NCBI RefSeq assembly: GCF_019795155.1
Contig: NZ_JAILYN010000030.1
Location: forward strand, 1 to 59,406
DNA length: 59,406 bases
Reading direction: 5' to 3'
From: Marinobacterium arenosum
GTDB taxonomy: Bacteria > Pseudomonadota > Gammaproteobacteria > Pseudomonadales > Balneatricaceae
In this document: positions 19,717 through 45,556 of the stretch, piece after piece
How the letters are laid out: every line of letters starts with the position of its first letter
Numbering within the stretch: the stretch's first letter is position 1
Program-made: the position numbers and the translations under genes
Notes under the pieces: generated by a model
Told to the model about the DNA's origin: nothing
Seen by the model: only the letters and a program-made list of their open reading frames with translations
Databases searched by the model: none

Positions 19717-20799
19717 TCAGTCGCCGCGATAGATGCGCGGGATACGACCGGTCAGGCAGGTCATCAGGGTATAGGGGATGGTGTCGCACCAGGGCGCCAC
19801 CTCGTTGATCGACAGGTTCGCCCCCCAGAACTCGACGGTGCTGCCAAGCCCCGCCTGCGGCAGGTCGGTCAGGTCCACGGTCAGCATATCCATCGATACC
19901 CGGCCGATAATCCGGCTGCGCTGGCCGTCGATCAGCACCGGGGTGCCGTTCTTGGCGTGGCGCGGGAAACCGTCGCCGTAGCCCATCGCCACGGTACCAA
20001 CCCGGCTCGGCTGGTCGGCGGTCCAGGTGCAGGCGTAACCGACACTCTCGCCCGGCTCGATTTCACGTACCGCGATCACCTCGGACAGCAGGGTCATCGC
20101 CGGCTGCAATTTGTCAGCCTCCACCTGCGGCTGGCCGAACGGCGAGGCGCCGTACAGCATCAGCCCCGGCCGCATCAGGTCCTGACGGGCCTGCGGCCAG
20201 CCCAGCGTGGCCGGCGAGTTGGCCAGGCTGACTGGTGCATCCAGCCCTTCAGTCGCCTGCCGGAAACGCTCGATCTGCACACGGGTGAAATCGTTATCCA
20301 GCTCATCGGCGCAGGCGAAGTGCGACATCAGCACCACTTCAGCCACCTGCGGCAGTGCCTTCAGCCGACGGAAGGCATCGGCATAATGTTCCGGCGCCAC
20401 ACCCAGACGGTGCATACCGGAATCCATCTTCAGCCAGACATGCAGTCCGGCAGACTCGGGCAGCGCGGCGATCTGGTCGATCTGATGCTCGCTGTGCAGC
20501 GCTGTCCAGAAATTCTGTTCGACGATGATCGGCAATTCATCCGGCTGGAAAAAGCCTTCCAGCAACAGGATCGGCCGTGTGATACCGGCCTCGCGCAGGG
20601 CGATCGCCTCCTCGATGCAGGCTACACCGAAAGCCGGCACCTCCGGTTCCAGAGCAGCCGCAACGCGGGTGGCGCCGTGCCCGTAGGCATCGGCCTTGAC
20701 GATGGCCACAGCCTGGCTTTGCGGCGACTGCGCACAGGCCAGCCGGTAGTTGGCGCGAATAGCATCCAGATCAATCAGAGCACGTGCTTGACGACTCAT
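19717..20799 (-). CDS. dadX: Alanine racemase (catabolic, DadX-like by context)
   Basis: PLP enzyme of 360 aa that interconverts L- and D-alanine. Lys35 in AIVKADAYGHG binds PLP; VGYACTW carries the catalytic Tyr; GRVSMDMLTVDLTDLP and GYGDGFPRHAKNGTPVLI are family blocks. Position 67 bp after ridA and near dadA and an Lrp regulator marks it as the catabolic racemase that turns L-Ala into D-Ala for DadA. A separate biosynthetic alr elsewhere cannot be excluded. Confidence 0.95.
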   Translation of the reverse strand: MSRQARALIDLDAIRANYRLACAQSPQSQAVAIVKADAYGHGATRVAAALEPEVPAFGVACIEEAIALREAGITRPILLLEGFFQPDELPIIVEQNFWTALHSEHQIDQIAALPESAGLHVWLKMDSGMHRLGVAPEHYADAFRRLKALPQVAEVVLMSHFACADELDNDFTRVQIERFRQATEGLDAPVSLANSPATLGWPQARQDLMRPGLMLYGASPFGQPQVEADKLQPAMTLLSEVIAVREIEPGESVGYACTWTADQPSRVGTVAMGYGDGFPRHAKNGTPVLIDGQRSRIIGRVSMDMLTVDLTDLPQAGLGSTVEFWGANLSINEVAPWCDTIPYTLMTCLTGRIPRIYRGD

Positions 20800-20866
20800 C
20801 GGGTTCCTCCTGCAGTACCACGAAACCGGCGAAGTGCAGTGTGCACAGCGCCGGTTGCCAACCGTC

Positions 20867-21253
20867 TTAGTCGACAGTCACCATGATCGCTTCAATTTCG
20901 ATATCCACCGCCTTCGGCAGCTGCTTGACCGCGTACGCGGCACGGGCCGGGTACGGCTCGGCGAAGTAGCGCGCCATCACTTCGTTAACGGTAGCGAAGT
21001 TTTCCAGGTCGGACAGCAGGATGGTGACCTTGACGAAGTCGTTCAGGCTGCCGCCTGCCGCTTCCGCAATCGCCTTCAGGTTTTCGAATACCTGCACCGC
21101 CTGGGCTTCGAAACCACCGTCAACCACTTCCATGGTTTCCGGGTTCAGCGGGATCTGGCCGGAGATGTAAACGGTCTGGCCAACCTTTACCGCCTGCGAG
21201 TAGGTGCCGATAGCGGAGGGCGCTTTGTCAGTGTTGATGATGCTTCTGTTCAT
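20867..21253 (-). CDS. ridA: RidA family enamine/imine deaminase
   Basis: 128-aa trimeric Rid protein that hydrolyses reactive 2-aminoacrylate and other imines made by PLP enzymes and amino-acid dehydrogenases. Landmarks: [45 protein letters not shown] and the active-site Arg in [13 protein letters not shown], with Glu in IEIEAI. It lies between dadA and the racemase, whose imino-acid products it would clear, and D-serine ammonia-lyase nearby would produce 2-aminoacrylate. A terminator separates it from dadA. Confidence 0.95.
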
Positions 21254-21361
21254 GGAAAATTCCTTGATAACTATTGTTTTGTAAGGATCACTACAACCCG
21301 GTGCAGGAGGATGTCAGGTTGAACTCGCTGACTATCCACAATTAGCAGGATAATTCAAACG

Positions 21362-21391
21362 AAAAAAAGCAGGGGTACCGGAGTACCCCGC
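21362..21391 (-). terminator. Terminator between dadA and ridA
   Basis: Minus-strand stem GGGGTAC/GTACCCC with a 4-nt loop (21372-21389), then GCTTTTTTT, 90 bp after the dadA stop. It would make ridA-dadX a separate or read-through-dependent unit. Confidence 0.85.
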
Positions 21392-21480
21392 GAAAACCAT
21401 CCAATGAGATTGGCTGAACGGATGGGTGAACAAAAACAATCCTGCACCGCCGGGCCACCGACCCGGCTGTAAAAGAGGGA

Positions 21481-22737
21481 TCAGCGGGCGTAACGTTCGA
21501 CGCCCAGGCCTTCACTGTCGATCTCCGGCGTGCGGCCGTTGATCACATCGTTCAGGTAGCGGGCCGAGCCGACCGACATGGTCCAGCCCAGGGTGCCGTG
21601 GCCAGTGTTCAAAAACAGGCTCTTGTACTTGGTCTTACCCAGTACCGGCGTGCCGTCCGGGGTCATCGGCCGCAGGCCGGTCCAGAACTCGGCCTTGCTC
21701 AGGTCGCCACCGCCACCGAACAGGTCGCTGACCACGAAGTCGGCATTGGCGCGGCGCTTCTCCGGCAGGCTCAGGTCGTAGCCGGTGATCTCGGCGGTAC
21801 CGCCGACCCGGATACGGTCGTCGAAGCGGGTCACCGCCACCTTGTAGGTTTCATCCATCACGGTGGAAACCGGTGCGCGGCTCTCGTCGATCAGCGGCAG
21901 GGTCAGCGAGTAGCCCTTGATCGGGTAGACCGGTACCTTGATACCGATCTGCGCCAGCAGCATCGGGCTGTAGCTGCCCAGCGCCACCACGTAGCGGTCG
22001 GCGGTCAGCTTACCGGCACTGGTCTGCACGCCGCTGATATCACCGGCTTCCAGATCCAGGCCATCGATGCTGGTGTTGTACTTGAACTCCACGCCCAGCT
22101 TGGCGCACTCGTCGGCCAGTGCCAGGGTGAACTTGTAGCAGTCGCCGGTTTCATCGCCCGGCAGCCGCAGGCCGCCGACGATCTTGTGCTTGACGTGGGC
22201 CAGCGCCGGTTCGCGTTCGGCACAGCCGTTGGCATCCAGCACTTCGAACGGAACGCCGGCTTCCTTCAGGATCGCCTGATCAGCCAGCGAGCCATCCAGC
22301 TGCTTCTGGGTACGGAACACCTGCAGGGTACCCTGCTCGCGGTGTTCGTAAGGGATGCTGATATCCTGACGCAGCTCGCGCAGGCAATCGCGGCTGTATT
22401 CGGCGATGCGCACCATGCGCGCCTTGTTGATCTGGTAGGCGGCCTCGGTGCAGTTGGCCAGCATCTGCATCATCCACTTGTACATGGTGCCGTCCAGCTT
22501 CGGCTGGATCGCCAGCGGCGCCAGATCCTGCATCAGCCATTTGACCGCCTTGACCGGCACGCCCGGTGCCGCCCACGGAGAGGAGTAGCCCGGCGAGATC
22601 TGGCCGGCATTGGCATAGCTTGTCTCAAGCGCCGGACCCGGTTGACGGTCAACGACGGTGACCTGATGGCCCTCCTTCGCCAGATACCACGCACTGGTAA
22701 TACCTACGACACCACTTCCGAGAACAAGAACGCGCAT
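21481..22737 (-). CDS. dadA: D-amino acid dehydrogenase, small subunit type
   Basis: FAD enzyme of 418 aa that oxidises D-alanine and other D-amino acids to 2-oxoacids plus ammonia, passing electrons to the quinone pool at the inner membrane. Dinucleotide motif [27 protein letters not shown] at the start, and family blocks [37 protein letters not shown] and [18 protein letters not shown] 22737 is preferred over GTG 22746 because AAGGTG is 8 nt before it. It is divergent from an Lrp regulator with shared operator sequences. Confidence 0.97.
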
Positions 22738-22762
22738 AGCACTCACCTTTGATTATTTTTTG

Positions 22763-22819
22763 TTCAGTGACGAGATTTATCGCTATTCTAGGATAAGATA
22801 TACAGTGAATCTCACTGAA
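22763..22819. promoter_or_regulatory. Likely Lrp-type operator region between dadA and lrp
   Basis: Three TTCAGTGA-like half sites: 22763-22770, and a perfect dyad CAGTGA-ATC-TCACTG at 22803-22817 that extends to TCACTGAA (22812-22819). They sit about 40 bp apart in the AT-rich divergent promoter region, the spacing expected for an Lrp octamer wrapping DNA. Confidence 0.55.
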
Positions 22820-22873
22820 GTTCATGTAGTATTAGGACGATTAGCTGGCAAAGATGTAAAAACAGGATTTCCT

Positions 22874-23374
22874 ATGGTTTCGCGTAACAATTCATCAAAA
22901 CCCCGTCGCTTCGACCGTATCGATCGCAATATTCTGCGCATCCTGCAGCGTGAGGGACGGATCTCCTACACCGAGTTGGCCGACCGGGTCGGGCTGTCGA
23001 CCACCCCCTGCATGGAGCGGGTCAAGCGGCTGGAGAAGGAGGGGGTGATTCAGGGTTACCACGCCCGGATCGACCCGGCCGCGCTGGACTACAGCATGCT
23101 GGTGTTCGTCGAGATCTCGCTCTCCTACCAGTCACCGGACGCCTTCGAGCGCTTCAGCCAGGCGGTGGCCGAGCTGCCCTATATCCTGGAGTGCCACCTG
23201 GTATCGGGCGACACCGACTACCTGATCAAGGCGCGGATCAGCGATATGTCGGAGTATCGCCAGCTACTGGGCGATATGCTGTTGAACCTGCCGGGGGTGA
23301 AAAATTCGAAGAGCTATATAGTGATGGAAGAGGTCAAGGAGACCAGCGAACTGCCGGTACCCAATCAGAGTTGA
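22874..23374 (+). CDS. Lrp/AsnC family regulator, probably of the dad genes
   Basis: 166 aa from the ATG at 22874, with ACAGGA upstream; a longer frame from 22760 runs through the promoter region and was rejected. N-terminal winged helix (DRIDRNILRILQREGRISYTELADRVGLSTTPCMERVKRLEKEGVIQGY), then the ligand-binding RAM domain (LVFVEISL ... DTDYLIKARISDMSEYRQLLGDMLLNLPGV). Divergent placement from dadA matches DadR/Lrp control by L-Ala in Pseudomonas and enterics. Its 3' end overlaps the dsdC 3' end by 10 bp on the other strand. Confidence 0.94.
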   Translation: MVSRNNSSKPRRFDRIDRNILRILQREGRISYTELADRVGLSTTPCMERVKRLEKEGVIQGYHARIDPAALDYSMLVFVEISLSYQSPDAFERFSQAVAELPYILECHLVSGDTDYLIKARISDMSEYRQLLGDMLLNLPGVKNSKSYIVMEEVKETSELPVPNQS

Positions 23375-24297
23375 GCGGCGGCGCCCTCCTCGCCCGACGC
23401 CACCTGCAGCAGCCAGTCGGCCACCAGACGGGCCGGTGCACTGGCGAGGGTGCCTTCGGGGATCAACAGATAATAGGTGCAGTCGGCCGCCACCGGCGGC
23501 AGCGGCGCCACCAGCCGGCCCGACGCCAGCGCCTCACGGACCACCGCGCCCCGGGCCAGCGCGATCCCCAACCCGGCGGCGGCCGCCTCGATCGCCATGT
23601 CGACCCGGTTGAAGCTGTGGCCGCAGCTGCTGTCCACCGCCGACAGGCCACTCTGATCCAACCAACGCCGCCACTCGGCATCCTTGGGTGCGCCGGGCCA
23701 GGGCATGGCATCGTGCAGCAGCGCCGCCTGCCGCCAACTCTGCGGATCCCGCCAGTCGGTATGGGGCATATAGTCCGGTGCCATCACCGGCAACAGGGTT
23801 TCCGGCAACAGCAGGTGGCTCTCGAAACCGGGGTAATGACCGTCGCGACCGTAATCGATCGCCAGGTCGAAATCGCCACCGGCAATGTCCAGCAGTGCCG
23901 CATCGGCAAAGGTCTCGACCCGGATATCGGGCCAGCGGCTGTGAAAGGCCTGCAGCCGCGGTATCAGCCATTTGAAGACGAACGACGGGATCGCCTTCAG
24001 CCGTACCGCCGCCTCGGCGGTCTGCCGCTGTATCCGTTCCACCGCCAATGACAGCGATTCCAGCGAGCGCCGGGTCACCCCCAGCAGCTCCTCTCCAGCC
24101 GGGGTCAGCGCGATCGCCCGCACCCGGCGCTCGAACAGCGCCACGCCGAGCTGCTCCTCCAGCTTGCGTATCTGCTGACTGACCGCACCGGTGGTCACGC
24201 AGAGTTCGCGGGCCGCTTCAGAAAAACTCAACAACCGCCCCGCCGCTTCGAAGGTACGTAGCGCGGCCAAAGTCTGTGCTTTAATGGTAATCGCCAT
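23365..24297 (-). CDS. dsdC: LysR-family regulator, DsdC-like, of D-serine ammonia-lyase
   Basis: 310 aa. GcvA-type N-terminal helix-turn-helix (LAALRTFEAAGRLLSFSEAARELCVTTGAVSQQIRKLEEQLGVALFERR) and a LysR effector domain. It is divergent from dsdA with a 172-bp shared region that contains a LysR-type dyad, the same layout as E. coli dsdC-dsdA. D-serine is the expected inducer. The symbol rests on context and family rather than a sequence match. Confidence 0.85.
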   Translation of the reverse strand: MAITIKAQTLAALRTFEAAGRLLSFSEAARELCVTTGAVSQQIRKLEEQLGVALFERRVRAIALTPAGEELLGVTRRSLESLSLAVERIQRQTAEAAVRLKAIPSFVFKWLIPRLQAFHSRWPDIRVETFADAALLDIAGGDFDLAIDYGRDGHYPGFESHLLLPETLLPVMAPDYMPHTDWRDPQSWRQAALLHDAMPWPGAPKDAEWRRWLDQSGLSAVDSSCGHSFNRVDMAIEAAAAGLGIALARGAVVREALASGRLVAPLPPVAADCTYYLLIPEGTLASAPARLVADWLLQVASGEEGAAAQL

Positions 24298-24368
24298 GTA
24301 ATTAAAGGCCTCCGGGCAGTTTCAGCGGGTACTTTGATCATACGCCAAGCAGACAGGCCAAGCCTATA

Positions 24369-24385
24369 GTTTAGCTACACTAAAC
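24369..24385. promoter_or_regulatory. LysR-type dyad in the dsdC-dsdA intergenic region
   Basis: GTTTAG-CTACA-CTAAAC, a perfect 6-bp inverted repeat with a 5-nt spacer that fits the T-N11-A rule, 85 bp before the dsdA start. Likely DsdC site. Confidence 0.6.
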
Positions 24386-24469
24386 CATCCTTAAATATCT
24401 ATCGTTTGTCAGGGTTCACCCGGGCGGGCGACACTGCAGGCTACATTCAACCGTCAGACGGAGAGCGCG

Positions 24470-25795
24470 ATGCCCGCCCTGCTGCTCAGCGAACAACAGA
24501 TAGAAAACCTGCGTAGCGGTACTCCGCTGCTCTGGCTGAATCCCGCCTATGGTGACCGCGCCAGCGCACCGGCTCGGCCGGAGGTCGAGCAGATGCTGGC
24601 CGCCGAACAACGGCTGGCCCGCTTCGCGCCGCTGCTGGCGCAGCTTTTTCCAGAACTGGCCGCCAACCAGGGGCTGATCGAATCGCCGCTGCTGACAGCG
24701 CCGATACTGCACCAGACGGTCAATCCGCTGGGCGGCCGCACGTTGATCAAAGCCGACCACGCGTTGCCGGTGGCCGGTTCGATCAAGGCCCGTGGCGGCA
24801 TCCATGAAGTGCTCTGCTTCGCCGAACAACTGGCGCTGGAACACAAGCTGCTCAGCGGCACCGATGACGATTACCGCAAGCTTCGGCAGGAAGATGCGCG
24901 GCAGCTGTTCAGCCGCTATGAAGTGGCGGTCGGCAGTACCGGCAACCTGGGCCTCAGTATCGGCATCATCGGCGCGGCGCTGGGCTTTCGCGCCACCGTA
25001 CATATGTCGATCGACGCCAAGCAGTGGAAAAAAGAGCGGCTGCGCAAGCGCGGTGTCCAGGTCGTCGAGCACGATGCCGATTACGGTGCTGCGGTGGCCG
25101 CCGGCCGCGCCCAGTCCGATGCCGATCCGTACAGTTACTTTGTCGACGACGAAAACTCACCGCGGTTGTTCATGGGCTATGCGGTAGCGGCGCTACGGCT
25201 CAAGCAGCAGCTGGCCGAACAACAGATCCCGGTGGATGCCGACCATCCGCTATTCGTCTACCTGCCGGCTGGTGTCGGCGGCGCCCCCGGCGGCATCACC
25301 TTCGGGCTGAAGGCACTGTTTGGCGAGCATGTGCACTGCTTCTTCGCCGAACCGGTACAGGCGCCCTGCATGCTGCTGGGGATGGCCGGTGCGCCCGGCA
25401 GTGAACCGCTGCCGGTCTATGACTTCGGTCTGCAGATCGATACCGACGCCGATGGCCTGGCGGTCGGCACCGCCTCACAGTGGGTCTGCGACACGGTTCG
25501 CGACCAGCTATCCGGCGTCTATACGGCAACCGACGACAGCCTCTACCGACAACTGTTGCTGCTGAAGCAACTGGAGTCGATCGAGGTCGAGCCCTCCGCC
25601 GCTATCGGTTGCCTCGGCCCTGCTATGCTGAACACAACCGCCGGACAGCAGTATATAGCCCACCATCAGCTGGCCGACCGACTGTCGCAATGCAGTCATC
25701 TGATCTGGACAACAGGCGGCTCTTTCGTTCCCGATAGCGAATATCAGGGGTATTTGCAAAAAGCCATTGAAAAATCCAATTCAAAATTATCGTAA
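24470..25795 (+). CDS. dsdA: D-serine ammonia-lyase
   Basis: PLP enzyme of 441 aa converting D-serine to pyruvate and ammonia. Lys106 in VAGSIKARGG holds PLP; phosphate-binding glycine loop is in VAVGSTGNLGLSIGIIGAALGF; further family blocks are WKKERLRKRGVQVVEHDADY and VYLPAGVGGAPGGITFGLK. Length and motifs match E. coli DsdA. Start 24470 has GGAGAG 3-8 nt upstream. It is followed 132 bp later by an AGCS transporter, which may bring in the D-Ser/D-Ala substrate. Confidence 0.97.
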   Translation: MPALLLSEQQIENLRSGTPLLWLNPAYGDRASAPARPEVEQMLAAEQRLARFAPLLAQLFPELAANQGLIESPLLTAPILHQTVNPLGGRTLIKADHALPVAGSIKARGGIHEVLCFAEQLALEHKLLSGTDDDYRKLRQEDARQLFSRYEVAVGSTGNLGLSIGIIGAALGFRATVHMSIDAKQWKKERLRKRGVQVVEHDADYGAAVAAGRAQSDADPYSYFVDDENSPRLFMGYAVAALRLKQQLAEQQIPVDADHPLFVYLPAGVGGAPGGITFGLKALFGEHVHCFFAEPVQAPCMLLGMAGAPGSEPLPVYDFGLQIDTDADGLAVGTASQWVCDTVRDQLSGVYTATDDSLYRQLLLLKQLESIEVEPSAAIGCLGPAMLNTTAGQQYIAHHQLADRLSQCSHLIWTTGGSFVPDSEYQGYLQKAIEKSNSKLS

Positions 25796-25927
25796 GAAAC
25801 GATATTGTTCACTATACGAAACTTGTTGATTGGGAAGAAACACCAGGAAACATGATTTCGACCCGCTTCTGGGCCCCCACAAGGGGCCGCAGGGCACTTA
25901 TAAAAATAACAAGGGGAGGTATCCTTA

Positions 25928-27307
25928 ATGGAAGCAATCAGCTCATTTATTGGCAGCGTCAACAGCATCGTCTGGGGCGTGCCAATGCTCGTTCTCATCC
26001 TCGGTGTAGGCCTCTTCATGAGCCTGGGCCTGAAACTGATGCCGATTCTCAAGCTCGGCACCGGCTTCAGCCTGCTCTGGAAAGGCCGTAGTGCAAAATC
26101 CGGCGAAGAGGGCGATGGTGAGATCCCGCCGTATCAGGCATTGATGACCGCACTGTCCGCAACCGTCGGTACAGGTAATATCGCAGGCGTTGCCACCGCC
26201 GTATTCCTCGGCGGCCCGGGCGCACTGTTCTGGATGTGGCTGACCGCGCTGGTCGGAATGGCCACCAAGTACTCCGAAGCCGTTCTGGCGGTGAAGTACC
26301 GTGAAGTTGATGAAAACGGCAACCACGTTGGTGGCCCGATGTACTACATCAAGAACGGTATGGGTAAAAACTGGGCCTGGCTGGGTACCGCATTCGCGAT
26401 CTTCGGCGCTATCGCCGGGTTTGGCATCGGTAACACCGTGCAGTCCAACTCCATCGCCCAGGTGGTGGAAAGCAACTTCGGTATCTCTACCGCCGTTACC
26501 GGCATCGTAGCCGCGGTACTGGTCGGCGCCGTACTGATCGGCGGTATCAAACGTATCGGTTCTGTCGCCGGCGCCCTAGTACCGTTCATGGCGATCGCCT
26601 ACATCATCGCCGGCCTGGTGGCATTGAGCATCAACGCCGCCGAGATTCCGCATGCGATCAGCCTGATCTTCACCAGCGCCTTCACCGGTCACGCCGCCGA
26701 AGGTGGTTTCGCCGGCGCTGCGGTATGGGCGGCGATCCGCTTTGGTGTGGCCCGCGGTATCTTCTCAAATGAAGCCGGCCTGGGTTCTGCGCCGATCGCA
26801 CACGCTGCGGCTCAGACCAAAAAACCGGTTCGCCAGGGCCTGGTTGCCATGCTGGGTACCTTCATCGATACCATCCTGGTCTGCTCCATCACCGGCCTGG
26901 TGATCATCACCTCCGGCATCTGGACCAGCGGTGAATCCGGTGCAGCGCTGACTTCTGCGGCCTTCGCCGACGCTCTGCCGGGCGTAGGCAATTACCTGGT
27001 AGCAATCTCGCTGGCCATCTTCGCCTTCACCACCATCATCGGCTGGTCGTTCTACGGCGAAAAATGCGTCGAGTTCCTGTTCGGTGTTAAAGCGATCGTG
27101 CCGTACCGCGTGCTGTGGATCCTGGCGATTCCGCTGGGCGCAACCCTGAGCCTGGACTTCGTCTGGCTGGTGGCCGATACGCTGAACGCCATGATGGCGA
27201 TCCCGAACCTGATCGCGATCCTGGTGCTGAGCCCGGTAGTCTTCAAGCTGACCCGCGAATACTTCGCCAGTCAGGCTGGCGGCCAGGTGGCACCCGACAG
27301 CAAATAA
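25928..27307 (+). CDS. Alanine/glycine:cation symporter (AGCS family), copy 1
   Basis: 459-aa inner-membrane Na+ (or H+)-coupled amino-acid transporter. AGCS signatures: ALSATVGTGNIAGVATAVFLGGPGALFWMW, GGPMYYIKNGMGKNW and RGIFSNEAGLGSAPIAHAAAQT. About ten or eleven membrane helices. Strong ribosome site AAGGGGAGG before ATG 25928, and a strong terminator after it. AGCS proteins such as AlsT/DagA carry L- and often D-alanine, glycine or serine. Its place between dsdA and the D-amino-acid genes suggests D-Ala/D-Ser uptake. Confidence 0.95.
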   Translation: MEAISSFIGSVNSIVWGVPMLVLILGVGLFMSLGLKLMPILKLGTGFSLLWKGRSAKSGEEGDGEIPPYQALMTALSATVGTGNIAGVATAVFLGGPGALFWMWLTALVGMATKYSEAVLAVKYREVDENGNHVGGPMYYIKNGMGKNWAWLGTAFAIFGAIAGFGIGNTVQSNSIAQVVESNFGISTAVTGIVAAVLVGAVLIGGIKRIGSVAGALVPFMAIAYIIAGLVALSINAAEIPHAISLIFTSAFTGHAAEGGFAGAAVWAAIRFGVARGIFSNEAGLGSAPIAHAAAQTKKPVRQGLVAMLGTFIDTILVCSITGLVIITSGIWTSGESGAALTSAAFADALPGVGNYLVAISLAIFAFTTIIGWSFYGEKCVEFLFGVKAIVPYRVLWILAIPLGATLSLDFVWLVADTLNAMMAIPNLIAILVLSPVVFKLTREYFASQAGGQVAPDSK

Positions 27308-29180: not shown

Positions 29181-30044
29181 TCAGTAATCGAACTTGGAAG
29201 CGGAGTAGATCTTGAACGCCGCTTCCCAGACTTCACCGACTTCACCGTTACCGACCGGCTGGCCGTCCAGCTTGGTGACCGGCGCGATCTCCTTGGAGGA
29301 GCTGGTGATCCAGATCTCGTCGGCGTTGCGTACTTCGTCCATGGTGACGGTACGCTCCTCCACCTGGATGGAACCGTCGGCTTTCAGGCTGTCGATGATG
29401 ATCCGGCGGGTGATACCCGGCAGGATCTGGTTATCCTGGATCGGCGTGATCACCACACCATCCTTGACGATGAAGGCGTTGCAGGAGCTGCCTTCGGTCA
29501 GCTCGCCGTTGCCGTTGTACAGCAGGATTTCGTTGTTGCCTGCCGCGTGGCCCTGCTGGTAGTGCATAACGTTGCCCAGCAGCGCGGTGGATTTGATGTT
29601 GCAGCGCTTCCAGCGCAGGTCTTCGGTGCTGGACACGGAGAACTGAGTAACCTTGGTACGGTCAGCCGGCTCCGGGTTCTTGATCGCGAAGGCGAACGCG
29701 AAGATGGTCGGCTCGACGTTTTCCGGGTAAGCGTGGAAACGCTTGGTGTCGGCACCACGGGATACGTGTACGTAAACGCCCAGGTTTTCACCTACGTCGG
29801 CGTTCTTGGCCACCAGTTCGTCCATCAGCTCACGCCACTGGTCAACTGTCTTGTTGCAGTTGATCTCCAGCGCCGCCAAGCCATCGATCATGCGGTTCAT
29901 ATGCGGCACGAAACCGACCGGCTTGGCTCCGTAGTAGGGAACCACTTCGTAGATACCGTCGCCGAACAGGAAACCACGGTCCAGCGGAGAGATACGGGCT
30001 TCGGCCAGGGGCACGTAGGAACCGTTCAGATATGCGATGCTCAT
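29181..30044 (-). CDS. dat: D-amino-acid aminotransferase (class IV PLP aminotransferase)
   Basis: 287 aa from the ATG at 30044, with AGAGG upstream; a longer frame to 30170 adds non-family residues. Transfers amino groups between D-Ala, D-Glu, D-Asp and 2-oxoacids. Class IV blocks: LNGSYVPLAEARISPLDRGFLFGDGIYEVVPYY, the PLP Lys in WKRCNIKSTALLGNVM, the Glu in LTEGSSCNAFIVKDG, and the phosphate loop ILPGITRR. YVPLAEARISPLDRGFLF and DLRWKRCNIKS point to D-alanine transaminase rather than IlvE. A stand-alone gene next to the pyroglutamate operon. Confidence 0.92.
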   Translation of the reverse strand: MSIAYLNGSYVPLAEARISPLDRGFLFGDGIYEVVPYYGAKPVGFVPHMNRMIDGLAALEINCNKTVDQWRELMDELVAKNADVGENLGVYVHVSRGADTKRFHAYPENVEPTIFAFAFAIKNPEPADRTKVTQFSVSSTEDLRWKRCNIKSTALLGNVMHYQQGHAAGNNEILLYNGNGELTEGSSCNAFIVKDGVVITPIQDNQILPGITRRIIIDSLKADGSIQVEERTVTMDEVRNADEIWITSSSKEIAPVTKLDGQPVGNGEVGEVWEAAFKIYSASKFDY

Positions 30045-30303: not shown

Positions 30304-31188
30304 TTAGCCGCCGATGACAATCTCGCGGGCGCTCTCCGCCAGCAACTTCGGCAGCATGCGATCATCCTCCAGCCGCCAGCCGCAGCAGAAGGTCAACTCC
30401 GGCGGCTCATCGCCGATCGACAAGCGCACCAGCGTTCCCGCCGCCAGCCGATCGCGTACCAGCGGTTCCGGCAACAGCGCGGCACCGGTACCCTGTTCGG
30501 CCAGGGCCAGCAGATTGGCCACCGAACTGCAGGTATGCAGCACCGGTCCTTCGTCGCCCAGCGTCTCGAACAGCTGCTTCAGATAGCGCCAGGGGCGGGT
30601 GTTGCGCGGAAAGCTCAGGATCGGCAAGCGTGCCAGCGATGCGACATCACGGATCTGTTCGCCACCCAGCAATGCCGGCGCCACCACCCAGTATTGCGGA
30701 TAGCTGCACAGCGGTTCGGTCACCAGCTCCGGGATATGCTGCTGCTCGGCGACCATCAGCGCCAGGTCGAGCTGGTGATCGCGCAATTGGCGGATCAGCG
30801 TCGGCGTGACGTCACAGGTCAACTCGAACGCCATCAGCGGATGCTGGTCGCGCCAGTGCTGCAACAACTTGGTCAGCCACAGGTAGGCCAGGGTGTCGGC
30901 CACGCCGATCCGCAGACAGCCGCGTTCCGGCGCGCCCTCCTGCAACTGCGCCTTCATCTCCTGGCTGATGGCGATCAGCTTCTCCGCGTAGGGCAGCAGC
31001 TGGGTGCCCCGTGCGGTCAGCCGGGTGCCACTCTTGTCGCGCAGGAACAGCTGCACACCGAGCTCGTCCTCCAGCGCCGCAATCCGGGCGGAGATCGCCG
31101 GCTGGGTCGCATGCAGCTGTTGGGCAGCGGCATGGAAACTGCCCAGCCGGGCGACTTTGACGAAGGTGTTCAGGTTACGAAGGCGCAT
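30304..31188 (-). CDS. LysR-family regulator at the end of the 5-oxoprolinase operon
   Basis: 294 aa with the N-terminal helix-turn-helix (LRNLNTFVKVARLGSFHAAAQQLHATQPAISARIAALEDELGVQLFLRD) and a LysR substrate-binding domain. It follows the PF14336 gene by 102 bp on the same strand and is the only regulator in that run, so it likely controls it, perhaps through the dyad at 35406-35426. The inducer is unknown; 5-oxoproline or D-glutamate is a reasonable guess. Confidence 0.9.
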   Translation of the reverse strand: MRLRNLNTFVKVARLGSFHAAAQQLHATQPAISARIAALEDELGVQLFLRDKSGTRLTARGTQLLPYAEKLIAISQEMKAQLQEGAPERGCLRIGVADTLAYLWLTKLLQHWRDQHPLMAFELTCDVTPTLIRQLRDHQLDLALMVAEQQHIPELVTEPLCSYPQYWVVAPALLGGEQIRDVASLARLPILSFPRNTRPWRYLKQLFETLGDEGPVLHTCSSVANLLALAEQGTGAALLPEPLVRDRLAAGTLVRLSIGDEPPELTFCCGWRLEDDRMLPKLLAESAREIVIGG

Positions 31189-31290: not shown

Positions 31291-32133
31291 TTAAGCGAAG
31301 CCGATGATCCGGCGCAGCTCCAGCAGGATGCTCTCGCCCTCGTTCACCGGCAGACCATCTTCGGTCAGCTCGTTGAGGCGGGTCACGCCGTCGACGCTGC
31401 CCAGCTCCGACAGGTACTGCAGGATCTCCAGCGGCTTCACCTTGGCCAGCAGATCGGTATCGTTCCATAGGCTGAGGAACGCCATGAGGCCGTAGGCGCC
31501 CCAGTTGGAGACGTCGGCGATCAGCAGCTCGTCCACCTGGGTGGCGGAGGCCACGATATCCAGCTCCTTCAGCGCCTCGTAGATGTTGCCCATGCCGATC
31601 TCGTTGCCGCCGTCACCGATGGCGATGGTCGGGCACTCGGCCTGGCGTACGAAGCTGTCGAAGCAGGCCGCACGGGCGCTGATGCTCTCACCGCGCATGT
31701 TGTAGTAGCCGCCGTCTTCCGCCTGGCCCGGCCGCTCGATCGACACGATCGCCTGCGGCTGGTACTTGGCCAGCGCCTCGGCCGCTTCCTGCTCGCGCTG
31801 GTCGTGCGGACCGACGTGGATCTCGTAGACCCGGTAATCGCGCGCCAGCGCCTCGGACATCGGCTTGCCGCAGACGATCACCGGAATAGCGCCCAGCTCC
31901 TCCAGCGCCCGGTACAGCGCCAGCGCGCCCACCGGACCGTCGGTTTCGAAGGTATCGACCACCGGGAAACCGGTACCGATCAATACGTGCCCGGTCAGGC
32001 CGCGCAACTTCTGCGCCGCCCGCAGGCAATAGCCCGCTTCCAGCGCCGGCTGGACCGTTTTCATACCACGCAGGTTACGCGCCACCAGCGCATCTTCGAT
32101 CTTCTGGCTCAGCGCCGCTTCATTGACAGTCAT
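31291..32133 (-). CDS. D-glutamate cyclase-family protein (DUF4392, PF14336)
   Basis: 280 aa. Corresponds to the C-terminal domain of mitochondrial D-glutamate cyclase (DGLUCY), which converts D-glutamate to 5-oxo-D-proline. Visible blocks: LIGTGFPVVDTFETDGPVGALALYRALEELG, VSIERPGQAEDGGYYNMRGESIS, and the glycine-rich IAIGDGGNEIGMGNIYEAL. It lies 33 bp downstream of pxpC in the same direction. The other domain of the human enzyme family (PF07286) is encoded at the head of the same operon, so the enzyme may be split in this organism. Activity is inferred, not known. Confidence 0.85.
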   Translation of the reverse strand: MTVNEAALSQKIEDALVARNLRGMKTVQPALEAGYCLRAAQKLRGLTGHVLIGTGFPVVDTFETDGPVGALALYRALEELGAIPVIVCGKPMSEALARDYRVYEIHVGPHDQREQEAAEALAKYQPQAIVSIERPGQAEDGGYYNMRGESISARAACFDSFVRQAECPTIAIGDGGNEIGMGNIYEALKELDIVASATQVDELLIADVSNWGAYGLMAFLSLWNDTDLLAKVKPLEILQYLSELGSVDGVTRLNELTEDGLPVNEGESILLELRRIIGFA

Positions 32134-32166
32134 GTTTGCAAACTTCTCTGTTGTAATTCTGTGACG

Positions 32167-33102
32167 TTACACCGCTTTCGGTTCGATCCGCTCGAACTGC
32201 TTATGCGCCAGGCAGTGCAGGTTATGGGCATCGTCCTGGGTGATCTCCTCGAAGGACACAGTGCCACCCGGCATCAGCTGGGTCAGCCGGCCGGTATCCA
32301 GCGAGATCACCGAACCGATCTTCGGATAACCGCCGATGGTCTGGCGGTCGTTCAGCAATACGATCGGCTGGCCGTCGGCCGGCACCTGGATGGCGCCGTG
32401 GCAGATCCCCTCGGACAGGATGCCGTCCATCGACGGCTTGATCTCTGGCCCTTCCAGGCGGAAACCCATCCGGTCGGCCCGGTCGGTCACCTTGTATTCG
32501 CTGCTGAAGAAGATCCGCTTCTGCACGTTGCTGAAGGCGTGCTGCTGATAACCGGGGATCACCCGCAGGGTGACATGCTGGCCGTATTCCGGCCGGTGCA
32601 GCTCTTCCAGCCGATAGCCCCGGGCGTCCGGCGCCGGCTTGCAGTGCAGGAAGTCGCCCTGCTGCAGGCGGGCACCGTTGAGACCGCCGATCGACTCGCG
32701 GGTCACCGTGGCGGCGCTATCGAAACTGTGTTCGACATGGAAACCGCCGCTGACCGCCAGGTAGGCCCGGGCGCCATTGGTGGCGAAACCGACCTCGATG
32801 CGATCGCCGGCGCGCACCTTATGGCTGTGCCAGCGATCCTGCTCGGTACCGTTGATCTTGAACGGCATCTCGGCGCCGGCCAGCGCGATACGGGTGTCGA
32901 CCTGGGCTTCCAGCACCAGGCCACCGATGCTGACCTCCAGCGCGGTGGCGTCCAGCGGGTTGTCGCACAACCGGTTGGCCCAACGGAACGCCAGCGGGTC
33001 CAGCGGCCCGCCGGTGGTCAGGCCGATACGGTGATGGCCGAACCGGCCGGCGTCCTGGATCAGGGTCAGCAGGCCGGGTTGGATGACTTTGAAACCGTTC
33101 AT
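32167..33102 (-). CDS. pxpC: 5-oxoprolinase subunit C (biotin-dependent carboxyltransferase-like, KipA)
   Basis: 311 aa. Third subunit of the ATP-dependent bacterial 5-oxoprolinase, which opens 5-oxoproline to glutamate. Family blocks: VIQPGLLTLIQDAGRFGHHRIGLTTGGPLDPLAFRWAN near the N terminus, GGYPKIGSVISLDTGRLTQLMPG near the C terminus. Starts within the pxpB stop codon (4-bp overlap), so the subunits are made together. Confidence 0.95.
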   Translation of the reverse strand: MNGFKVIQPGLLTLIQDAGRFGHHRIGLTTGGPLDPLAFRWANRLCDNPLDATALEVSIGGLVLEAQVDTRIALAGAEMPFKINGTEQDRWHSHKVRAGDRIEVGFATNGARAYLAVSGGFHVEHSFDSAATVTRESIGGLNGARLQQGDFLHCKPAPDARGYRLEELHRPEYGQHVTLRVIPGYQQHAFSNVQKRIFFSSEYKVTDRADRMGFRLEGPEIKPSMDGILSEGICHGAIQVPADGQPIVLLNDRQTIGGYPKIGSVISLDTGRLTQLMPGGTVSFEEITQDDAHNLHCLAHKQFERIEPKAV

Positions 33103-33776
33103 AGTTCACCTCCCAGTTCCAGGTACGTCTCGCGGCTGATCGGTTCGAAGCGGACCCGGTCACCCACCTGCACCGGCATGGTCGGATCGGCAGCCGGGTT
33201 GAACATCCGGGTCGGGCACAGCCCGATCAGGTTCCAGCCGCCCGGCGACACCGCCGGGTACACCGCGGTCTGGCGATCGGCGATTGCCACGGCGCCGCGC
33301 GGTACCTTCTGGCGCGGCGTGGACAAGCGGGGGGCGGCAATTCGCTCATCGACCTCGCCCAGGTAGGCGAAGCCCGGTGCGAAACCGATCGCGTAAACCC
33401 GGTACTCCATACCGCTGTGGATTTCGATCACCTCGTCGACGCTGAGCCCGGCACGTTCGGCCAGCGCGGCCAGATCCGGTCCGGACTCGGTGCTGTACCA
33501 GGCCGGCAGGGTGACCAGCCGGCCCTCGCCCTGCTCGGCGCTATCCAACTGCTGCAACGCCGTGCGCAGCCGGCGGCGGATCTCCAGGTGGTCACAGGCC
33601 AGCAGGTCGTAGATCACCAGCAGCGAGGCGTACGACGGCACCAGGTCGATCAGCACGTCGGCCAGCTCGGTCTCCAGCACCTTGACCGCCTGCTGCACCT
33701 GGGCGGAGATGCGCGGATCGGTGCGCTCGCCGAAATAGATGATCAGGGCGTTTTCGCCGGCGACTTCTATTCTCAT
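33099..33776 (-). CDS. pxpB: 5-oxoprolinase subunit B (KipI family)
   Basis: 225 aa from the ATG at 33776, which overlaps the pxpA stop by 4 bp; the longer frame to 33995 lies inside pxpA and is spurious. Family blocks: DVLIDLVPSYASLLVIYD, YRVYAIGFAPGFAYLGEVDERIAAPRL and PRGAVAIADRQTAVYP with SPGGWNLIG. Works with PxpA and PxpC to hydrolyse 5-oxoproline with ATP. Confidence 0.95.
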   Translation of the reverse strand: MRIEVAGENALIIYFGERTDPRISAQVQQAVKVLETELADVLIDLVPSYASLLVIYDLLACDHLEIRRRLRTALQQLDSAEQGEGRLVTLPAWYSTESGPDLAALAERAGLSVDEVIEIHSGMEYRVYAIGFAPGFAYLGEVDERIAAPRLSTPRQKVPRGAVAIADRQTAVYPAVSPGGWNLIGLCPTRMFNPAADPTMPVQVGDRVRFEPISRETYLELGGEL

Positions 33777-34507
33777 CGGGTCAACAGCTCCCGGATCTCC
33801 TGGATCGCATTCACCCCTTCGATGTTGTCGCCATGCACGCAGAGGGTGTCGACCTGCAGCGGCAGCACCTTGCCACTGATGGTGGTGACGGTGCCCTGCT
33901 CGGCCAGCTGCTTGACCTGGGCCAGCATCTTGTCGCGGCTGTGCACCGCCCCTTCGCGGGTCCGGGCCAGCAGGCGGCCATCGTCGTCGTAACAACGGTC
34001 GGCGAACGCCTCGAACCAGAGGTTGAGACCGAAACCGGCCGCTTCGGCGCGGTGCTTCTCGGCATCCGGCGTGGCCTGCAGCATCAGGATGATCGGCCGG
34101 TGGTAGCTGGCGATCGCTTCCATGATGGTGCGGCGGATCTCGTCGTTGGCCATCATGTCGTTGTACATCGCGCCGTGCGGCTTGACGTACTCCAGCTGCA
34201 GCTGCTGGGAGGCGGCCATACCGTCCATCGCCGACACCTGGTAGAGCAGCATCGCTTTCAGCTCTTCGGCACTGGCCTTGACATGGCGGCGGCCGAAGCC
34301 GACTAGGTCCGGATAGCCCGGGTGGGCACCGATGGTGACGCCGTTGCGTTTGGCCAGCATCAGCGTGCGCAGCATCACCAGCGGATCGCCGGCATGGAAA
34401 CCGCAGGCAATGTTGGCCTGGTCGATATGCGGCATCACCGCCTCGTCCATCCCCATGGTCCAGGAGCCGAAGCTCTCACCCAGGTCGCAATTCAATTTCA
34501 GGGTCAT
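33773..34507 (-). CDS. pxpA: 5-oxoprolinase subunit A (LamB/YcsF family)
   Basis: 244 aa with the YcsF signatures LNCDLGESFG, NIACGFHAGDPLVM, IGAHPGYPDLVGFGRR and VKPHGAMYN. It is the subunit that binds 5-oxoproline in the PxpABC complex. Strong ribosome site AAGGAGGAG before the start. Gene order after the PF07286 gene, then A, B, C with 4-bp overlaps, recalls Bacillus ycsF-ycsG-ycsI-kipI-kipA, except that the ycsI homologue is first here and a PF14336 gene is added. Confidence 0.96.
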   Translation of the reverse strand: MTLKLNCDLGESFGSWTMGMDEAVMPHIDQANIACGFHAGDPLVMLRTLMLAKRNGVTIGAHPGYPDLVGFGRRHVKASAEELKAMLLYQVSAMDGMAASQQLQLEYVKPHGAMYNDMMANDEIRRTIMEAIASYHRPIILMLQATPDAEKHRAEAAGFGLNLWFEAFADRCYDDDGRLLARTREGAVHSRDKMLAQVKQLAEQGTVTTISGKVLPLQVDTLCVHGDNIEGVNAIQEIRELLTR

Positions 34508-34522
34508 TTGACGTACTCCTCC

Positions 34523-35311
34523 TTACATCACCGCCAGACGGCTGTTCGGCAGATCGGTAACCAGCATATGGCCCGGGCTATGGGTGATACAGAACGGCGG
34601 CTTGGCCTGTTCGATCGCCACCTGCGGCGTCACGCCGCAGGCCCAGAATACCGGCAACTCACCCTCCTTGATGGTGACCGAGTCGCCGAAATCCGGCTTG
34701 TTGATATCACTGATGCCGATCTGGGCTGGATCACCCAGGTGCAGCGGCGCGCCATGCACCGACGGGAAGCGGGTGCAAATCTGCACCGCCCGGATCGCGT
34801 CGGCCGCCTTCATCGGTCGCATGCTGACCACAGTGGTACCGCTGAAACGACCGGCCGGGCGGCATTCGATATTGGTGCGGTACATCGGCACGTTGACCCC
34901 TTCGGTGATATTGCGCACCTCCAGACCATCGGCGATCAGCGCCTCCTCGAAGGAGAACGAACAGCCCAGCACGAAAGTCACCAGGTCATCACGCCAGTAT
35001 TCGCGTACATCGGCCACTTCAGCGGTCAGCTCGCCATTTTCATAGATGCGGTACTTCGGGATGTCAGTGCGGATATCCAGGCCTTCGCCGAGATCGGGCA
35101 GCATGAACTCGCCCGGCTGCGACGACATACCGATAATCGGGCACGGTTTCGGGTTCAACTGACAGAACAGCAGGAACTCGTTGGCCCACTCGCGAGGCAT
35201 GATCGCCAGGTTGCCCTGCACGAAGCCCTGGCAGTAGCCGGAGGTGTTACCGGTAAAATCGCCGCTGCGGATCTTCTGGCGCAGCTCACGCGGTGACATC
35301 TTCAGGTCCAT
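34523..35311 (-). CDS. D-glutamate cyclase-family / putative hydro-lyase (DUF1445, PF07286, YcsI-like)
   Basis: 262 aa. First gene of the 5-oxoproline operon, 15 bp before pxpA. Family blocks: [62 protein letters not shown], and the C-terminal [13 protein letters not shown] and [14 protein letters not shown]07286 is annotated as putative hydro-lyase (YcsI) and also as a domain of the D-glutamate cyclase family. Together with the PF14336 gene it would complete the human DGLUCY domain set. Which reaction it performs alone is not known. Confidence 0.9.
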
Positions 35312-42568: not shown

Positions 42569-44029
<1,461 letters not shown>

Positions 44030-44086
44030 TGACTACCAACTAACCGGGCTTGTCCGGCAATGACGCCAGAGCACAGCCTTTTTCCT

Positions 44087-44124
44087 GCGACCGCCGATCA
44101 CCCACCGTTCGGCGGTCGCTTTTC
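44087..44124 (+). terminator. Terminator between AGCS copy 2 and aspA
   Basis: Perfect stem GCGACCGCCGA/TCGGCGGTCGC (44087-44119) with an 11-nt loop, then TTTTCG. Followed 29 bp later by the aspA start, so it may be leaky. Confidence 0.75.
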
Positions 44125-44152
44125 GTCCCTTGTTTGAGTCGACTCAAAAAAC

Positions 44153-45556
44153 ATGAACACACGTATTGAACATGACCTGCTGGGTGAGATGGCGATCCCG
44201 GCCGACTGCTGGTATGGCATTCAGACCCAGCGCGCCGTCGAGAACTTCGCCATCACCGGCGTGCCGATCAGCCACTTCCCGCCGTTCATCAAGGCGCTGG
44301 CGATGGTCAAGTCGGCCGCTGCCAGCGCCAACCGTGAATTGGGGCTGCTGGTACCGAAGAAAGCCGATGCGATCACCGCCGCCTGCCGGGATATCATCGA
44401 CGGCCGGCTGCACGACCAGTTCGTGGTCGACCTGATCCAGGGCGGTGCCGGCACCTCCACCAATATGAACGCCAACGAGGTGATCGCCAACCTGGCGCTG
44501 GAGAAACTCGGCCACGGCAAGGGTGAATACCGGCAGTTGCACCCGAACGACGACGTCAACCGCTCCCAGTCGACCAACGACGCTTACCCGACCGCGGTCT
44601 GCCTGGGGTTGCAGTTCGCCGCCGAGCCGCTGATCGAGGCGGTCGACAGCCTGAAGCGGGCGCTGGAAGCCAAGGGCGAGGAGTTCGCCGATGTGCTGAA
44701 GATGGGCCGCACCCAGCTGCAGGACGCGGTACCGATGACCCTCGGCCAGGAGTTCGAAGCTTTCGCAGTGACCCTGGGCGAGGATATCGAGCGGATCAAC
44801 GAGGCCTGCCTGCTGCTGTGCGAGGTTAACCTGGGCGGCACCGCGATCGGCACCGGCATCAACACCCACCCGGATTACGCCGCGCTGGCGGTCAGTGAAC
44901 TGGCGAAGCTGTCCGGCAAGCCGATCGTCCAGGCCAGCCACCTGGTGGAGGCGACCTCCGATATGGGCGCCTTCGTGCTTTTCTCCGGCATCCTGAAGCG
45001 GCTGGCGGTGAAACTGTCCAAAGTCGGCAACGACCTGCGCCTGCTATCCAGCGGACCTCGCACCGGCTTTGGCGAGATCCACCTGCCGCCGATGCAGCCG
45101 GGCTCGTCGATCATGCCGGGTAAGGTCAACCCGGTGATTCCTGAAGCGGTCAACCAGACCGCCTACCAGGTGATCGCCAGCGACCTGGCGGTGACTCTGG
45201 CCGCCGAGGCCGGTCAGCTGCAGCTCAACGCGATGGAGCCGCTGATCGTCTACAACCTGCTGAACTCGATGAAGATGCTCGGCGCCGCCTGCCGGATGCT
45301 GGAGACCCGCTGCATCAACGGTATCCGCGCCGATCGCGAGCAGTGCGCCCGTCATGTCGACCACAGCATCGGCATCATTACTGCGTTGGTACCCCATATC
45401 GGCTACGCCAGCGCATCACGTATCGCTTCACAGGCACTGCATAGTGGCGCTACAGTACGCGAACTGGTGATCCGCGAAGGACTGCTGACCGACAGCCAGC
45501 TGGATCAACTATTGAGCCCACAATCGATGCTGACACCCCAGATGACCCGCCTATGA
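44153..45556 (+). CDS. aspA: Aspartate ammonia-lyase (aspartase)
   Basis: 467 aa, converts L-aspartate to fumarate plus ammonia. Superfamily signature GSSIMPGKVNP with the catalytic Ser, and GGAGTSTNMNANEV, NRSQSTNDAYPTA and GRTQLQDAVPMTLGQEF. EHDLLGEMAIPADCWYGIQTQRAVENF is aspartase-like rather than fumarase-like. Its last codons overlap the asparaginase start by 4 bp. Confidence 0.95.
   Translation: MNTRIEHDLLGEMAIPADCWYGIQTQRAVENFAITGVPISHFPPFIKALAMVKSAAASANRELGLLVPKKADAITAACRDIIDGRLHDQFVVDLIQGGAGTSTNMNANEVIANLALEKLGHGKGEYRQLHPNDDVNRSQSTNDAYPTAVCLGLQFAAEPLIEAVDSLKRALEAKGEEFADVLKMGRTQLQDAVPMTLGQEFEAFAVTLGEDIERINEACLLLCEVNLGGTAIGTGINTHPDYAALAVSELAKLSGKPIVQASHLVEATSDMGAFVLFSGILKRLAVKLSKVGNDLRLLSSGPRTGFGEIHLPPMQPGSSIMPGKVNPVIPEAVNQTAYQVIASDLAVTLAAEAGQLQLNAMEPLIVYNLLNSMKMLGAACRMLETRCINGIRADREQCARHVDHSIGIITALVPHIGYASASRIASQALHSGATVRELVIREGLLTDSQLDQLLSPQSMLTPQMTRL

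Follow-up and report, generated by a model that had tools for sequence, protein, structure and literature searches.

A bacterial gene cluster that seems able to convert D-glutamate to L-glutamate by way of 5-oxoproline

Introduction

What do the two halves of a mammalian enzyme do when they occur in a bacterium as separate proteins, encoded on either side of the genes for 5-oxoprolinase? The question is raised by a gene cluster of Marinobacterium arenosum (RefSeq assembly GCF_019795155.1) on contig NZ_JAILYN010000030.1; the stretch analyzed, here called the window, is this entire contig (59,406 nucleotides) of a 4.8 Mb genome. On its minus strand, read 5′ to 3′, lie a gene of the PF07286 family, pxpA, pxpB, pxpC, a gene of the PF14336 family, a LysR-type regulator gene and a class IV aminotransferase gene that resembles D-amino-acid transaminase (DAAT). 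This cluster, which is common to many bacteria, seems able to convert D-glutamate to L-glutamate via 5-oxoproline, and its layout suggests a hitherto unknown enzyme that would invert 5-oxo-D-proline to 5-oxo-L-proline.

PF07286 (DUF1445) and PF14336 (DUF4392) are both present in the D-glutamate cyclase of mouse and human (DGLUCY/GLUCM, EC 4.2.1.48; PMC5339696), and an earlier note on this DNA was right to recognize in the human enzyme the relatives of the first and fifth proteins of the cluster. Knockout mice for the enzyme are reported to build up D-glutamate in the heart (PMC5339696). The same two domains occur here in a different arrangement: the mammalian protein is one chain, whereas the bacterial genes bracket pxpABC and are followed by those for LysR and DAAT.

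Three bacterial systems invite comparison. The PxpABC operon of Bacillus subtilis shares pxpA, pxpB, pxpC and PF07286 (ycsI) with this cluster, presumably in the order pxpA-ycsG(mntG)-ycsI-pxpBC, and it also includes a manganese importer, as reported elsewhere (PMC10448178). Such an importer would suit a manganese enzyme, yet B. subtilis is without PF14336: among 14 control genomes PF07286 was matched in B. subtilis alone and PF14336 in none, B. subtilis included, which bears out the remark in the earlier note that Bacillus has YcsI with PxpABC and no PF14336 partner. The pxpTABC operon of C. glutamicum has pxpA, pxpB and pxpC in common with the cluster; the terms D-glutamate, 5-oxo-D-proline and ycsI do not occur in the main text of the C. 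glutamicum paper (PMC13274462). DgcN-DgcA of marine Proteobacteria is described as carrying out, with different genes, the conversion proposed here, an irreversible racemization of D-glutamate to L-glutamate at considerable energy cost (Yu et al., 2023, as cited in PMC12363236 and PMC10845958).

Results and Discussion

The cluster probably handles D-glutamate and 5-oxoproline. Hydrolysis of 5-oxoproline leaves the alpha carbon untouched, and a net route to L-glutamate therefore needs an inversion at the 5-oxoproline stage. From the layout the earlier note had predicted a passage of D-glutamate through 5-oxo-D-proline to glutamate. If PxpABC took the D form, one of the options which the note allowed for, that sequence would return D-glutamate at the cost of ATP, and in this form it is not supported. 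The note's other option, a 5-oxoproline racemase activity in one of the two proteins flanking pxpABC, agrees better with the linkage of the genes, which favors PF07286 for this part, although the model of this protein matches no known racemase fold (see below).

The full assignment of genes to reactions, to which we give a probability of about 0.45, would make the cluster a one-way route from the amino groups of D-amino acids to L-glutamate. First, DAAT would move the amino group of D-alanine or another D-amino acid to 2-oxoglutarate to yield D-glutamate, which might also be supplied by peptidoglycan. Second, the PF14336 protein would use a two-metal (manganese) site to cyclize D-glutamate to 5-oxo-D-proline and water, in chemistry like that of creatininase or dihydroorotase. 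Third, the PF07286 protein would invert 5-oxo-D-proline to 5-oxo-L-proline, with the near-invariant cysteines C117 and C225 as candidate acid/base residues. Fourth, PxpABC would spend ATP to open 5-oxo-L-proline to L-glutamate, which would render the whole route irreversible; LysR would be its regulator. These reactions, the choice of PF07286 for the third of them and the part given to its cysteines are proposed from genomic context, that is, from the observed gene layout, conservation, linkage and metal-site residues. Somewhat more tentatively, a PF07286 5-oxoproline racemase together with PF14336 as the true cyclase, DAAT (often joined by alanine racemase) and PxpABC may constitute a new, ATP-driven stereo-inversion pathway that leads from D-amino acids to L-glutamate, in which case the vertebrate enzyme would be a fusion of cyclase and racemase. 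If correct, this would provide a second one-way route from D- to L-glutamate beside DgcN-DgcA and a testable division of labor between the two domains of mammalian D-glutamate cyclase.

Gene Layout in the Window

The PF07286 protein (DUF1445/YcsI/UPF0317; 34523-35311, minus strand, 262 amino acids) matches its Pfam family at E 5.4e-69 (231 bits; cut-off 25) and scores above the cut-off of NF003969, "putative hydro-lyase"; its relatives in the PDB are 3db9 and 2pif, at about 1e-89. All three 5-oxoprolinase subunit genes follow contiguously on the same strand: pxpA (33773-34507; PF03746 E 4.4e-91; above the cut-off of the PxpA subfamily model NF003816), pxpB (33099-33776; PF02682 E 6.5e-70; TIGR00370 166.7 bits, cut-off 145.55), whose ATG at 33776 gives a 4-base overlap with the end of pxpA, and pxpC (32167-33102; PF02626 E 9.6e-87), which overlaps pxpB by 4 bases and is above the cut-off of the domain model TIGR00724 and under that of the PxpC equivalog NF045499 (218.3 of 500 bits). 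The PF14336 protein (DUF4392, GLUCM-like C-terminal; 31291-32133, minus strand, 280 amino acids) matches Pfam at E 1.8e-72 (244.7 bits; cut-off 27.9). Beyond it, also on the minus strand, come the LysR-type regulator (30304-31188; PF03466 and PF00126) and DAAT (29181-30044; PF01063), the longest frame of which extends to 30170, the start at 30044 having been picked by eye.

The order PF07286-pxpA-pxpB-pxpC-PF14336-LysR given by the earlier note is thus correct in place and sequence. Its span of 31291-35311 takes in the cyclase-like and pxp genes and leaves LysR and DAAT outside; it also overlooked DAAT itself, the alanine racemase gene beside DAAT in other genomes and the D-amino-acid genes elsewhere in the window. 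LysR likely regulates the cluster; a LysR homolog stands between PF14336 and DAAT in 6 of the 25 order-level loci introduced below, once inverted.

The PF07286 and PF14336 genes are separate in the window, 2.4 kb apart, and do not form the one chain of the GLUCM type. PF14336 frames in the order-level and phylum-level samples measure at most 376 codons, too short for both domains, with the exception of one of 3,586 codons that has no PF07286 domain by Pfam. An unbroken frame of 3,573 amino acids in a gammaproteobacterial genome (L213:4680-15401, minus strand, genome G497; L and G numbers are our handles for loci and genomes) holds two PF14336 domains, between which motifs like those of glutamate racemase were seen by eye (no Pfam call at E 0.01). 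A PF07286 gene immediately precedes this frame, and a Fic-domain gene stands at its opposite side. The product is possibly a large secreted protein that would tie PF14336 to a glutamate-racemase-like domain.

Split GLUCM homologs are already in print: among gut-bacterial homologs of the human enzyme six were reported as split and none as full-length (Rendina et al., preprint, PMC11580864), and the available text of that preprint yielded no operon partners, pathway or half-specific role. The pathway itself was not found in the literature searched: among the papers listed in limited searches of mainly open literature, none was found to describe this cluster or to connect DUF1445 or DUF4392 with racemization of 5-oxoproline. 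In a corpus of 5.39 million open papers we found no report of 5-oxoproline racemase activity, and searches of the open literature gave nothing on D-glutamate cyclase with manganese or on D-pyroglutamate with D-glutamate.

Recurrence of the Cluster

The cluster was followed through a sample of 194 genomes at the order level, a sample of 398 at the phylum level and 80 named loci from a collection scan (the best 80 of 562 confirmed stretches). These sets overlap; the named loci L162, L125, and L187, for instance, are contigs of the sampled genomes G134, G082, and G517. Upstream counts are restricted to the 71 named loci whose upstream flank exceeds 3.3 kb and downstream counts to the 76 whose downstream flank exceeds 1.2 kb (9/80 were omitted for a short left flank and 4/80 for a short right flank), and 25 of 26 order-level stretches are counted because the PF14336 match of L053 (G104) is under the cut-off.

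In the order sample PF14336 is above cut-off in 26 of 194 genomes, and PF07286 is so in 48. Of the 26 genomes with PF14336, 25 also carry PF07286, more than chance would give (Fisher p 3.5e-17, a value that is only descriptive because the genomes are related); the one genome with PF14336 and without PF07286 is G082, which is 87% complete and in 240 contigs. Around the 25 order-sample PF14336 genes other than that of the window, PF07286 lies in the stretch in 21, and the complete set PF07286-pxpABC-PF14336-DAAT in 19. At 64 of 71 named loci the genes stand in the order PF07286-pxpA-pxpB-pxpC-PF14336, so that the genome survey proposed in the earlier note finds the pair beside pxpABC well beyond this genome, and the pattern is broader than first described. 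In the four genomes whose named locus is without a nearby PF07286 (L162, L180, L191, L194) the gene lies elsewhere; in five others examined (L160, L170, L181, L187, L192) it is close to the cluster. Reduced clusters also occur, namely PF07286-PF14336-DAAT without pxpABC (L036, L170), PF07286-PF14336 alone (L187, L216) and PF07286-pxpA-PF14336-DAAT with pxpBC elsewhere (L048, L227). Among the matches listed, the closest relatives of the PF14336 gene belong to Oceanospirillaceae-type Gammaproteobacteria.

A PxpB-type match to PF02682, with an E value of 1e-58 or lower, is present in all 48 order-sample genomes with PF07286; a PF02682 match of any kind occurs in 140/194. This nesting of PF14336 within PF07286 within PxpB is the pattern expected of a linear pathway in which an earlier step pays only with the later one.

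DUF1611 (PF07755), which we take to be the DgcN family, has no match in the M. arenosum genome. Mutual exclusion of DUF1611 and PF14336 was considered as a sign of equivalent function and rejected, a strong DUF1611 match being present in 6 of the 26 PF14336 genomes; DgcN-DgcA and the route proposed here are therefore not exclusive.

Linkage of PF07286 and of DAAT

The two flanking genes keep different company. For comparison we selected 49 loci where PF07286 stands in a stretch devoid of PF14336. They are spread over 47 genomes; 45 of these belong to the 68 sampled ones in which PF07286 occurs and PF14336 does not, and the other two are G234 and G318 (L293–L295), which have PF14336 elsewhere. 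G524 and G234 contribute two loci each. PxpB is in range in 22 of these loci, a HyuA-HyuB pair (the eukaryotic-type 5-oxoprolinase family) in 9 more and a tripartite ATP-independent periplasmic (TRAP) transporter only in a further 8. The HyuA-HyuB example L278 is above no NCBIfam equivalog cut-off, and we therefore infer its "5-oxoprolinase" function. The best PDB matches of the TRAP binding proteins of L268 and L220 are 2pfz/2pfy (E 1.2e-96 and 3.7e-90), which we take to be the structure entries of the Bordetella receptors DctP6 and DctP7. Both receptors are reported as solved with 5-oxoproline, and they adjoin a eukaryotic-type 5-oxoprolinase gene (PMC13274462). PF07286 stands beside genes of this type in a number of genomes, in stretches that differ from the present cluster in having no PF14336 and almost no DAAT (1/49, L291, a 25% identity match); DadA likewise occurs in 1/49 (L273). 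TRAP and HyuA-HyuB genes were considered as members of the cluster in the window and rejected, there being no match in the window and none near PF14336 in the 80 named loci. A different set of genomes has PF07286 within the pxp cluster, between pxpA and pxpB (L217, L218, L264, L265, L293, L303).

In Gammaproteobacteria PF14336, for its part, accompanies DAAT, which is near it in 24 of 25 order-level loci and in 68 of 76 named loci (two of them in opposite orientation). PDB sequences that match the DAAT of the window at E below 1e-40 number nine (1.8e-54 to 4.1e-46), and every one is named a D-amino acid or D-alanine aminotransferase, 4m0j (1.8e-54) and 3daa (7.9e-47) being among the best; the same genome has four further PF01063 genes, closest to DAAT at 38–39% identity. 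An alanine racemase gene (alr) starts 0–153 bp after DAAT in 27 of 80 named loci, four more have a more distant alr across the other side of the cluster, and 21 of 26 order-level stretches hold an alr homolog.

The assignment of the racemase step to PF07286 is suggested by this difference in linkage: PF07286 is found near 5-oxoproline genes even where no source of D-glutamate is visible, while PF14336 accompanies DAAT. Because of these two linkage habits, in the 49 comparison loci and in the 80 named loci, PF07286 with a 5-oxoprolinase looks like a constant core to which an exchangeable input is joined, either import through TRAP or production through DAAT and PF14336.

Active-Site Residues and Folds

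The metal ligands of TON_0340, a protein reported to be 36% identical to the C-terminal domain of the human enzyme, are Glu59, Asp61, Glu115, Asp157, Glu161, and Asp246 (PMC5132392). The PF14336 protein resembles TON_0340 both by sequence (E 4e-30) and by Foldseek (E 2.4e-22; predicted local distance difference test, pLDDT, of the model 96), and by alignment it keeps all six acids as E63, D65, E133, D174, E178, and D259, which are invariant in 46 sequences and also in a set of 13.

Among PF07286 proteins C57, C117, C225, H186, H191, and H244 are invariant in 66/66 cluster sequences. Of the 49 comparison loci, 45 retain C117 and 46 retain C225. A pair of conserved cysteines is also a feature of the two-cysteine racemases MurI, proline racemase and DapF. 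Our guess from the sequences is that C117 and C225 face each other across the active site as candidate acid/base residues. L282, L287, and L288, all of one genus, have Ser in place of both C117 and C225 and Ala or Val in place of H244. The 16-kb stretch of each of the three is free of 5-oxoprolinase and TRAP genes, and their PF07286 protein is perhaps a paralog with another function.

An internal repeat in PF07286 was sought by comparing the halves of a 44-sequence alignment (split at 138/139) and was rejected, the hhalign probability being 0.4% against 0.06–4% in 20 column-permuted controls. Beyond 2pif and 3db9, the matches of the PF07286 model at E ≤0.001 are two chains of 3nek (NrpR-like; template modeling score 0.36–0.42), to which no weight was given.

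Evidence Against the Assignment and Alternative Explanations

Several of our results weigh against the full assignment. Its proposed racemase shows no known racemase fold: by Foldseek the PF07286 model (pLDDT 90) matched none at E ≤0.001 nor in 50 of 332 rows, and sequence profiles gave no sign of the two repeated halves that characterize MurI, proline racemase and DapF. Only one genus shows the double loss of cysteines, and L292 has lost C117 and H186 though PxpABC adjoin. The linkage counts are drawn from related genomes and hence are non-independent; the Fisher values ignore this relatedness, and the table for DAAT omits the nine phylum-sample PF14336 loci. No PxpB, HyuA-HyuB or TRAP gene is in range in 10 of the 49 comparison loci, and several other TRAP binding-protein matches are weak (21–29% identity). 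DAAT falls under its NCBIfam cut-offs (NF005209, 244.8 of 320 bits; TIGR01121, 216.3 of 277.45 bits) and is missing in 8/76 named loci, among them L144, the closest relative listed. In the phylum sample the pattern is weaker: PF14336 is found in 10/398 genomes, 8 of which have PF07286, and the other two (G245, G290) have it nowhere in the genome; at the nine PF14336 loci other than that of the window (L208–L216), PF07286 is in the stretch in five (L212–L216) and DAAT in only two (L212, L214). The mammalian fused enzyme, DUF1445 included, is reported to yield 5-oxo-D-proline, healthy humans excrete mainly the D form, and an L product has no mention in the available text (PMC5339696). A working DUF1445 racemase should give rise to some L product, unless the activity has been lost or the L form is used by the host 5-oxoprolinase.

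In an unlikely alternative, PF07286 and PF14336 would form one D-glutamate cyclase and PxpABC would take 5-oxo-D-proline, either for homeostasis or to provide D-glutamate for MurI or DAAT. The vertebrate enzyme, with both domains in a single chain and 5-oxo-D-proline as its product, would be the precedent (PMC5339696), and PF07286 directly adjoins PF14336, with no pxpABC between, at the four loci L036, L170, L187, and L216. The 39 of 49 comparison loci at which PF07286 stands beside 5-oxoproline genes without PF14336 speak instead for a role of its own, and hydrolysis of the D form would regenerate D-glutamate in a futile ATP cycle. The animal distribution of the domains also argues against a single enzyme: vertebrates and invertebrates alike are reported to have DUF4392, with DUF1445 confined to the vertebrates, so that invertebrate DUF4392 occurs without it (PMC5339696).

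It is less likely still that the roles are swapped, with PF07286 as the D-glutamate cyclase and PF14336 as the 5-oxoproline racemase, despite the names given to PF07286 ("D-Glu_cyclase" in Pfam, "putative hydro-lyase" in NCBIfam) and the reported 32% homology between DUF4392 and a protein that bears the annotation Asp/Glu/hydantoin racemase (PMC5339696). The linkage runs the other way, PF07286 accompanying 5-oxoproline genes without a visible gene for making D-glutamate and PF14336 accompanying DAAT. The two-metal site of PF14336 is moreover all-carboxylate, and such sites are usual for amide hydrolysis or dehydration and not for alpha-proton transfer.

We assign the same low likelihood to the view that the D-glutamate link is incidental, either because the cluster acts on a different small lactam or amino acid or because PF14336 is a phosphatase like TON_0340. 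TON_0340 itself, reported as a manganese-dependent phosphatase of low activity with its true substrate unknown (PMC5132392), bears against cyclization of D-glutamate by PF14336, and HyuA-HyuB enzymes span several lactams. In other classes of the phylum, PF14336 homologs stand in different neighborhoods: L208–L211 have neither DAAT nor PF07286 in the stretch (L209 has PxpA and PxpB about 7 kb off), and a scan of ten neighbor frames found an AMP-binding enzyme, a Mur-ligase-like protein and a methyltransferase among the PF14336 neighbors. The family may have other roles in those classes; since these four loci stand with other genes, the route from D-glutamate to L-glutamate is not extended to them. 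Within the cluster, PxpABC, the 5-oxoproline-type TRAP receptors and DAAT all indicate glutamate and 5-oxoproline, and the substrate of the vertebrate relative is D-glutamate.

Least likely, PF07286 would be an ATP-independent 5-oxo-D-proline hydrolase or cyclase that makes D-glutamate for MurI or DAAT with no 5-oxoproline racemase. Organisms that import through TRAP could then use the D form with no need of a new activity, and the M. arenosum genome has four matches to the Asp/Glu racemase family, of which two are strong, but two hydrolases for the same substrate in one operon would be redundant and the equilibrium between glutamate and 5-oxoproline favors 5-oxoproline.

Neighboring Genes

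The window also holds a D-amino-acid island at 19717-27307, which is in keeping with the proposed route. On the minus strand it contains an alanine racemase gene (DadX-like; 19717-20799; above the cut-off of TIGR00492 and below that of the DadX exception model) and a gene for D-amino acid dehydrogenase (DadA; 21481-22746; NF001933 686.9 bits, cut-off 383); on the plus strand are genes for D-serine ammonia-lyase (DsdA; 24470-25795; NF002823 595.7 bits, cut-off 246) and a symporter of the sodium:alanine/glycine family (AgcS; 25928-27307; PF01235, TIGR00835 above cut-off). A LysR gene (GcvA/DsdC-like) is clustered with them. Neither DsdA nor DadA was found in the 80 named loci, and the island is therefore not conserved there. 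On the far side of the pxp genes, 42569-45556 encodes a second AgcS-type symporter and then a gene of the aspartate ammonia-lyase family.

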